DNA of 64,000 nt from an uncultured Tateyamaria sp. (GTDB lineage: Bacteria > Pseudomonadota > Alphaproteobacteria > Rhodobacterales > Rhodobacteraceae), in the NCBI RefSeq assembly GCF_947503705.1, contig NZ_CANNES010000009.1, forward strand, positions 1 to 64,000, read 5' to 3'. Position 1 is the stretch's first letter. Every line of letters begins with the position of its first letter. The position numbers and the translations under genes were made by a program. Under the pieces are notes generated by a model, which had not been told where the DNA came from, did no database searches, and was given only the letters and a program-made list of their open reading frames with translations. This document shows positions 52,403 to 54,171 of this stretch, one piece after another.

Positions 52403-52962
52403 GTGGCGTCGGTTTCCTAACATCTTGTGTTTTTCGGGCCGTGCGGTTGTCTCCGCCGGTCTTGGGGTTCCATTGGTCAGGCATATCGCAAAACAAAGAG
52501 GGCCGGAGTTTCCGACCCTGCTCATCTCGATGTCTTGCGGTGTTTACACCTTAGCGACAGGCGCGCGTATAGCGGGGGTTGGGACGAAGGGCAAGGGTTT
52601 GGGATGTCGTCCCTAATTTCGGGCGCCTTTCCCCGTTTTTTACCGTCTGTCCCCGCGGGGACAACCCGTTCGGTGGGTTAGTGGTATTTCAATGATCTCG
52701 GGGATGCGCCGTGGATCAAGGAGATAGCGCACCGTGCGGTCCGTTAGCGCATGTTAACCACATATCTGGCACCCTGCTGCCCGAAGACGGGCGGTGGGAT
52801 CCATTGGGCTGGACACTGGCAATCTATATATGACACGCTGGGAGATGGCCAAAGTCCGCTTTGAGCCCAATGTGTCAGCTGCCGACAGCTTCAATGCTAT
52901 GGGCAGAAATGGGTTCGAGCAACACGACTGGCTTGACCCAAGATTAGGTTTTTGACACGTCA
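52403..52962. other. Intergenic region between rpsA and the Rieske-like gene
   Basis: About 560 bases upstream of two divergent genes. It should hold the rpsA promoter and leader. GTCCCCGCGGGGAC (52649-52662) is a 14-base palindrome. From about 52780 on the GC content drops noticeably and stays low through the next gene. No gene or RNA was recognised. Confidence 0.4.
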
Positions 52963-53577
52963 ATGGGAGCGCAGCTGGATCAAGAATTGCAGAGACCAAC
53001 CAACATGAAACAGTCTAACGCCCTATATTTTGCTACAGGCGGGATGTTGGTGCTAACGGTCGCAGTAGGGCTGTTCTTTCTGTTCCAAACAATGTCGCCT
53101 ACTGCAGACATTACCAGCGCTCCAAGAAATACCGTGTATACTCTAAACGTACAGGGTTTTGAACCCAGACAGACTGCAACGTATAGGCTTGACGGAGTGC
53201 CTGTGGTGGTTTGGCGAAGGAGTTTTGAACAAAAAGTTCAGGCTCTTGAGCTGCTGGGCGTCGAAATACGCGGAAACACCGAGCTTCTTGAGGAAGTTCG
53301 AAGGACCGACGAGATAGAAATCGAACCTGATCTCGTTTTGCATTTGGAATGGTTCGTTGTGAGTCCAATCAACACTGGCGGATATGGATGCGTTGTACTC
53401 GCGGGTGCCGGAGACTTGGGCGGCTTTTTCGACCCGTGCCAGGGCGTTCATTTTGATCTTTGGGGACGGGTCAAGTCCGGCCCCACTGAAGCGGACCTTC
53501 AAGTTCTGCCGTGGAACATTTCCGAGGATGCAAGCGTAATCACGGTGGATGTAGGCAATGCACCAAGACCGGAATAG
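52963..53577 (+). CDS. Rieske-fold protein lacking all [2Fe-2S] ligands (bc1 Rieske-subunit paralogue), 204 aa
   Basis: N-terminal membrane anchor (about residues 20-42, LYFATGGMLVLTVAVGLFF) followed by QTMSPTADI and GVPVVVWRRS, which align with the anchor and hinge of the cytochrome bc1 iron-sulfur subunit. The C-terminal cluster-binding region keeps the fold pattern but not the ligands. Box 1, normally CTHLGC, reads TGGYGC (138-143). Box 2, normally CPCHGSH, reads DPCQGVH (157-163). Both ligand Cys and both ligand His are lost, while the disulfide partners Cys143 and Cys159 remain. The twin-arginine signal is also absent. Low GC content relative to its neighbours suggests horizontal origin. 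An alternative start is the ATG at 53005. Function unknown; a structural, regulatory or decoy role near bc1 is possible. Confidence 0.75.
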   Translation: MGAQLDQELQRPTNMKQSNALYFATGGMLVLTVAVGLFFLFQTMSPTADITSAPRNTVYTLNVQGFEPRQTATYRLDGVPVVVWRRSFEQKVQALELLGVEIRGNTELLEEVRRTDEIEIEPDLVLHLEWFVVSPINTGGYGCVVLAGAGDLGGFFDPCQGVHFDLWGRVKSGPTEADLQVLPWNISEDASVITVDVGNAPRPE

Positions 53578-53628
53578 AAGAACTGCAAATCGTAAGGGAA
53601 AGGTCCGCTTGGTCCGCATAGCAGCCCT

Positions 53629-54171
53629 TCAGATTTCTTCGCCCCGTTCCTGCAACTCCTCAAACAGCTCCTGATAAATCCCGTTGCTGTCGCCACCGCC
53701 AAACACCGTGGCCCCGCCCGAATAGGTTTGGCCATAGGTGCGGGCCACGTTCACGGTCTGGATCAGGGCAGAGATCAACTGGTCCTTTTCCAACGGGCCG
53801 AGCGGATGGATGAAAACACCCCAGAGACGTCCACGGGCGACCGCGTAACGCGCATCAAGGGCCGTGTCGAAATTGGCCTGCATCAGGCGCATCAGCTCTT
53901 CCGTGGTCAGCCCCTGGGCGGAGCGGATCGGGACCATGGCGCGCATGCGGTCGGCCACAGGGTCTGCGACCACGATCACGGGGATGTCGTCGATGGTCAG
54001 CTCGATCATGTTGCCCGATGGCGTGGCCTCGGGGTCAATCGCCCGGATGATCTGGGCCAGGCGCAGCATTGTCATGCTCGGCTCGGCGGTTGGTTCGGGG
54101 TTGGGGGTGTCCTGGGCCACGGCGAAGGTGGCCAAGACCATGAGGGCGAGGGCAGGAAGGATACGGGGCAT
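53629..54171 (-). CDS. Exported YbjN-like protein, 180 aa
   Basis: Signal peptide (MPRILPALALMVLATFAVAQ), then an alpha/beta domain of YbjN/CesT-like character: LRLAQIIRAIDPEATPSGNM, DDIPVIVVADPVADRM and TTEELMRLMQANFDTALDAR. The C-terminus is Gly-rich then acidic. The start is the ATG at 54171 with AAAGGTG upstream. Function unknown; periplasmic chaperone-like binding is conceivable. It converges with the Rieske-like gene. Confidence 0.7.
   Translation of the reverse strand: MPRILPALALMVLATFAVAQDTPNPEPTAEPSMTMLRLAQIIRAIDPEATPSGNMIELTIDDIPVIVVADPVADRMRAMVPIRSAQGLTTEELMRLMQANFDTALDARYAVARGRLWGVFIHPLGPLEKDQLISALIQTVNVARTYGQTYSGGATVFGGGDSNGIYQELFEELQERGEEI

Follow-up and report, generated by a model that had tools for sequence, protein, structure and literature searches.

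Why does a bacterium that owns an intact petA carry a second Rieske gene whose product has lost every ligand of the [2Fe-2S] cluster? The question is raised by a gene in the window, the whole stretch of 64,000 nucleotides from an uncultured Tateyamaria sp. that was analysed here. An earlier note, made from the letters alone, had described the product as a membrane-anchored Rieske paralogue with both disulfide cysteines kept, and had proposed that the gene was acquired and is held by selection. We show here an accessory Rieske-type family with a predicted anchor and fold, no cluster ligands, purifying selection and differing loci. That selection still shapes an extra, mobile Rieske copy without cluster residues suggests a decoy or a structural part, not an electron carrier. 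The literature is cited below from excerpts of the papers concerned.

The window gene and its product

The features of the locus are collected in Table 1. The earlier note had opened the reading frame at the ATG at 52963, which we replace by the likelier start at 53005 on the basis of upstream DNA compared with relatives at other loci; the ATG at 52963 is unconserved against the upstream DNA of a relative with 68% identity. With the start at 53005, six residues precede the LY of the anchor. The proposed homology to the bc1 Rieske protein extends across almost all of the sequence (E 1.9e-14 for TIGR01416; matches to Rieske chains in the PDB begin at E 1.8e-15). The TIGR01416 score of 54.1-54.4 bits lies below the curated cut-off of 97.4 bits for PetA, and a Pfam search of the long form of the protein, at E up to 10, gave no match.

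Table 1. Coordinates of the features at the locus of the cluster-less Rieske gene
Feature	Position	Strand	Remarks
Stretch missing in congener G008, holds the gene	52595..53628	.	G008 has about 60 bp here, with the flanks shared; insertion or replacement
Promoter-proximal conserved region	52931..53004 (approximate limits)	+	Common to G479, G422, G212; other neighbours
In-frame upstream extension of the Rieske paralogue ORF	52963..53004	+	Start in the earlier note; unconserved in relatives
Cluster-less Rieske paralogue	53005..53577	+	190 aa plus stop; best-supported start; TIGR01416 match
Predicted N-terminal membrane anchor, residues 3-30	53011..53094	+	Model helix H3-30; without RRxF(L/I)
Neck, ADI to conserved P of the head	53110..53163	+	18 residues versus 15
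Degenerate box 1 TGGYGC	53374..53391	+	No ligand Cys or His; disulfide Cys retained
Degenerate box 2 DPCQGVH	53431..53451	+	Asp for the ligand Cys, Gln for the ligand His; disulfide Cys retained
Short interspersed repeat	53603..53617	+	26 bp past the stop; 1 mismatch to probe

All four [2Fe-2S] ligands are replaced in the window protein (0/4) and both disulfide cysteines are present, as had been claimed. The original reading of the boxes holds for the missing ligands and fails for the length of box 1, which with its context reads INTGGYGC and exceeds that of canonical PetA by one residue; the first ligand cysteine therefore falls on N or on T according to where the gap is placed.

The idea that the fold was kept agrees with a structure comparison, in which the AlphaFold2 model of the window protein (pLDDT 77.7) appears Rieske-like, with Z 11.7 and rmsd 3.6 over 118 residues to 1rie. 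The model of a member of the second clade described below, clade B (pLDDT 71.0), gave Z 14.6 and rmsd 2.6 over 123 residues to 2a06_R. The AlphaFold2 models are predictions from nine sequences and are silent on partners.

The GC content of the gene is indeed lower than that of the window (0.511 versus 0.590), and its position is isolated in that no pet gene adjoins it. Its neighbours, by names read from their sequences, are an rpsA-like gene and, at the opposite flank, a 183-aa ORF and a metK-like gene, all unrelated. The window genome (G000; 4.43 Mb, 31 contigs) has a canonical petA with its ligands, directly followed by petB (named from its sequence), on another contig (C1).

Size and distribution of the family

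Profile searches found at least 24 cluster-less Rieske genes in 23 genomes of Rhodobacteraceae, the family to which the named relatives of the window gene belong; member counts are lower bounds, and in many genomes the searches scored the best 8 candidates. Members reach at least 139 bits and the best other match 105.8 bits, among the matches listed. A single-sequence scan of genome contigs found no relative, and a profile scan of genome contigs gave 8 loci. The window gene is thus no lone degenerate copy, the alternative that the earlier note had put forward; yet two of the 24 genes have an in-frame stop.

Presence is sporadic. Among 20 genomes of its own genus, its own included, only the window genome has the gene; the other 19 gave PetA-like matches, of which 18 have an identity of 30-34% and the remaining one is split in two. 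A relative with 69% identity belongs to another genus and came from a family-wide draw of 394 genomes, about one per genus, in which at least 7 hold a member. Members were found in 11 of 54 genomes in what we take to be the genus of Ruegeria atlantica HKCCA5752 and in 5 of 25 in the putative genus of a Shimia assembly. A Shimia assembly (G426) carries two members at separate loci (L106 and L107), one of clade A and one of clade B. In a class-wide draw of 385 genomes (5 of the own family), none outside the family exceeded 80.0 bits among the matches listed. Eight hosts (G000, G212, G097, G170, G426, G442, G479 and G495) have a second, canonical-type match among the matches listed.

Several known origins were tried and rejected. 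The 14 members scanned belong to no known family by Pfam, PHROGs or PADLOC, with four single stray Pfam matches at E 0.086-0.2. As regards a phage origin, two scans of a viral contig collection found no relative. As regards a plasmid origin, 17 of the 20 records listed, from 83 matching plasmid records, are annotated as petA and 3 are unannotated, all below 34% identity. Separately, a 'Bacteriophage sp.' record from faeces (MT835550.1:15791-16249) has an unannotated Rieske-like match at 27%, which may be bacterial sequence filed as phage.

Ligands, disulfide and selection

The loss of ligands is shared by all members and is clade-wide (0/4 ligands in 24/24 members), and members would accordingly appear to hold no cluster. 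The ligand alignment comprised 23 members and 77 distinct canonical PetA, with the 24th member added separately. The position of the box-2 ligand Cys is taken by Asp in 18 of the 23 members and by Glu in the other 5, and that of the box-2 ligand His is never His; the H-x-D that follows the latter is invariant (23/23). The Tyr adjoining H-x-D, which we take to be Tyr165 of the Rieske protein, is Phe in 18/23 members. According to an excerpt of PMC10715153, the cluster loses a hydrogen bond when Tyr165 is changed to Phe.

The members fall into two groups by their cysteines. Clade A (17/24, including the window's) has exactly two cysteines in the head domain, both at the disulfide positions, whereas the 7 members of clade B have neither disulfide cysteine, G442 having a single Cys elsewhere. 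No member has only one of the pair (0/24), and none has a Cys between EW and the disulfide position (24/24 sequences). This both-or-none pattern fits a disulfide, but it may also reflect a single historical loss. The earlier claim that selection has kept the disulfide therefore does not hold throughout the family: with both cysteines lost in 7/24 members, the disulfide is not what selection keeps in all of them.

A first tree sets 14 members apart from 55 canonical PetA as a single clade with support 100/100; this tree comprised 14/24 members (G495 was left out and nine were found later) and 55/77 canonical sequences, its bootstrap was unsettled, and the branching order among members is unsure because of long branches. 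In a second tree of 16/23 members, 13/77 canonical sequences and 12/39 sequences of the Rieske family f26, the 16 members again form one clade (support 100/99). For the canonical set, three sequences that have no PSAD motif, though ligand-bearing, were kept apart from the 80 counted; for the Tat and hydropathy comparison duplicates and X-containing sequences were dropped, leaving 77, which are related and not independent, so that the p-value of that comparison does not stand for a probability.

Purifying selection was found in all 18 pairs with unsaturated silent sites, close ones included (dN/dS 0.16-0.32, bootstrap intervals at or below 0.60); two stopped copies, the deleted copy and G1192 stood outside this test. 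The window gene is open and gives dN/dS of 0.16-0.19 with three relatives, in line with the view that it is not simply decaying, and a pseudogene reading is ruled out by the open frame and these values. In all, 21/24 members are open and full-length. The two stopped copies and one member with an internal deletion of about 19 residues indicate that the gene can be lost.

Mobility and neighbourhood

The gene looks acquired, as had been suspected: its site is empty in the congener G008, and elsewhere the unit of promoter and gene stands beside other genes. The window gene has about 70 bp of upstream and about 50 bp of downstream DNA in common with G479, G422 and G212. Because this flanking DNA is shared despite different neighbours, promoter plus gene seems to be the spreading unit. 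In the window (52403-53631) and among congeners, the rpsA-like gene and the 183-aa ORF are separated by a spacer that is a variable insertion site and measures 264-1258 bp at 7 measurable loci, the own one included (11 were unmeasurable). A short repeat lies beside 4/15 members examined, three of clade A and one of clade B: 26 bp past the stop of the window gene, and 29-43 bp past the gene in G479, G325 and G212 (the last a weak match with 3 mismatches). It is not abundant in the own genome, where a DNA search gave 3 weak matches. Among the families listed, no neighbour family beyond the Rieske gene itself recurs in more than 4/15 neighbourhoods, which speaks against a conserved partner gene.

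Other members offer further observations on their surroundings. In Ruegeria atlantica (L104:9112-16558), copies of an element of about 75 bp, in the same orientation among those found, separate lone low-GC genes on either strand in a cassette-array-like manner, and the cluster-less Rieske gene adjoins the first copy. The downstream flank is the same in 7/9 Ruegeria members compared (L143-L149), which suggests a preferred site. An ispG-like gene adjoins members of both clades (G589, G495, G170; L110, L111, L061), in differing orientations.

Anchor, Tat motif and neck

The strict Tat motif RRxF(L/I) occurs in 0/24 members versus 77/77 distinct canonical PetA. Clade A has mostly lysines in its place (KKDFLYYATGG in G422 versus RRDFLYYATGG in canonical PetA), and in 5/7 members of clade B MRR persists, though its context is shifted. 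Nor is the strict motif found in every Rieske protein with its boxes, since some of those in f26 carry KR (KRDFLK in L206) or RRxxL; a looser Tat motif fits 38/39 f26 sequences. The mean hydropathy of the anchor is 1.93 in members versus 1.36 in canonical PetA and exceeds the canonical median in 22/24 members, with two Shimia members below it. The Gly+Ala fraction of the anchor is 0.23 (15 members) versus 0.37. According to an excerpt of a review (PMC7317946), most bacterial Rieske proteins have a single helix that is Tat-inserted, and lysine substitutes poorly in the motif. The h-region of Tat signals is described there as lower in hydrophobicity and higher in glycine, and hydrophobic signals that have no RR as still able to take the Tat route to a reduced extent. 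In eukaryotes, RR-type motifs do not track the presence of Tat (excerpt of PMC6251230). With these two excerpts, the RR kept in 5/7 of clade B and the departures in f26, the loss of RRxF(L/I) is no proof of leaving Tat.

The anchor itself is unchanged in length, with 27 residues from LY to D in 24/24 members and 77/77 canonical sequences. The neck from D to P has 18 residues in 23/24 members (20 in G097) versus 15 in 77/77 canonical PetA; in f26 (n=38) it has 15 residues in 33 sequences, 16 in 3, 19 in one and 14 in one. The extra residue of box 1 is found in 24/24 members. Compared by sequence only, NPSADV agrees with the canonical consensus better than any other region (65%; next best 52%), and the anchor outside it matches at only 31%. 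G097 is without the P-[ST]-A-D-V motif, and in members the Pro loop and the tip loops are changed.

A possible decoy in the Rieske slot and its alternatives

We tentatively favour the reading that the protein, being cluster-less, sits as a decoy in the place of the Rieske subunit of cytochrome bc1, with its head parked at Qo; it is a possibility, and its mechanism is pieced together from sequence. A protein without a cluster would no longer need Tat and could be inserted by Sec/YidC, and the clade-A members, the window's included, would form a single disulfide in the periplasm. The kept anchor length and P-[ST]-A-D-V motif suggest, indirectly, that the protein may still take the Rieske slot. 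Its head would be unable to carry electrons, and such a head on a neck three residues longer would turn the protein into a natural decoy or plug of the Qo site in a subset of bc1 complexes, where it might throttle or shield quinol oxidation. The whole chain, that is, a mobile single-gene decoy that is inserted by Sec, assembles into the host bc1 and parks its head at Qo by its longer neck as a plug or dial of Complex III, is doubtful as a complete account.

For the decoy we count the absence of ligands in every member, the clade support of 100/100, the dN/dS values, the predicted fold, the anchor of 27 residues and the match of NPSADV, together with the loss of the Tat motif and the anchor hydropathy, the cysteine pair of clade A and the drop in turnover of a laboratory mutant, 2Ala (excerpt of PMC4583038). 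Against it we count the poor match of the anchor outside NPSADV, the absent motif of G097, the changed Pro and tip loops, the lost disulfide of clade B, the full turnover kept by the mutant 1Ala (same excerpt), the limited bearing of the motif loss on the export route, the low hydropathy of the two Shimia anchors and the neck length of f26, which varies from 14 to 19. The three extra neck residues could partly extend the first strand, and rarity and 3/24 damaged copies point to a dispensable function; both count against the decoy.

The members may instead have left bc1 as neofunctionalised membrane-anchored periplasmic proteins, in which the Rieske fold would be a scaffold for another partner or ligand and H-x-D with Asp/Glu a new site. 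The exchange of the box-2 ligand Cys for an acidic residue in all members aligned, the invariant H-x-D, the stand-alone loci, the long branches and the changes of tip and Pro loop speak for such a history. However, the fixed anchor length and the mostly retained P-[ST]-A-D-V would be unexpected if contact with bc1 were gone, and no neighbour family among those listed recurs in more than 4/15 neighbourhoods; we consider this reading somewhat less likely than the decoy. A cluster-free Rieske protein could also be a structural stand-in that lends stability to bc1, to a supercomplex or to Complex I under a shortage of intact PetA, a role proposed for the deranged bc1 of the acidophilic Acetobacteraceae Acidocella/Acidiphilium (excerpt of PMC10715153) and in keeping with the predicted fold and anchor length; it is improbable here, as the slot is not empty in a genome with canonical petA followed by petB, and the gene is present only sporadically. 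That the gene is selfish or decaying and spreads by recombination next to short repeats with little host function, as the stopped and deleted copies, the single-gene insertion in the window and the repeat beside 4/15 members (one a weak match) might suggest, is even harder to credit in the face of dN/dS below 1 in 18/18 pairs, close ones included and damaged copies and G1192 outside the test, and of the 21 open, full-length members.

The decoy, if it does bind bc1, would provide a cluster-free probe of half-inactive bc1 dimers. PMC4330944, in its excerpt, deals with asymmetric bc1 mutants. Even without bc1 binding, the members that lost their ligands have lost the Tat motif as well, and one clade also its disulfide. 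Since these losses coincide, a single family would allow tests of how the protein is exported and of what the disulfide does in a Rieske fold that has no cluster.

Comparison with known systems

In the open-licence literature we found no account of a cluster-less Rieske family of Rhodobacteraceae, nor of an accessory, mobile, cluster-less Rieske clade without Tat motif beside an intact petA-petB. The nearest relative is PetA (TIGR01416), with which the window member shares full-length homology, a single N-terminal anchor of identical length, the predicted Rieske fold and the disulfide cysteines. It differs from PetA in the four replaced ligands, the score below the cut-off, the absent RRxF(L/I), the neck longer by three residues and box 1 longer by one, and its gene lies outside petABC and is extra to an intact petA.

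Such a protein is not unheard of, since Degli Esposti et al. 2023 (PMC10715153), in the excerpt, report a deranged ISP of Acidocella in which three or four ligands are missing and both disulfide cysteines are retained, as in the window protein. The Acidocella ISP is the PetA of a deranged bc1 according to that excerpt, whereas the window gene stands alone in a genome with its own ligand-bearing petA and then petB. In our data, L202:917-1540 of family f26 is a PetA before a petB-like frame that has lost three of four ligands and has kept SRRGFL and one ligand Cys; it fits the published Acidocella type and is presumably Acidocella. L202 groups with its own family f26, and a joint clade with the members has p-AU 0.020, which disfavours a common origin with the deranged f26 ISP on the strength of one long-branched sequence. 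As L202 groups apart from the members, loss of ligands with a kept disulfide probably happened at least twice.

The longer neck has its parallel in Rhodobacter capsulatus PetA, in which one or two added alanines detain the head at Qo on a scale of milliseconds or seconds, with turnover of 140 per s in the wild type, 144 (full) in 1Ala and 4.2 in 2Ala (excerpt of PMC4583038). Like these mutants, the members have a longer stretch between anchor and head. The 1Ala and 2Ala proteins of that excerpt are laboratory mutants with an intact cluster, whereas the members have three natural extra residues and no ligands; if they do bind bc1, they would be a natural counterpart of the laboratory Rieske neck mutants.
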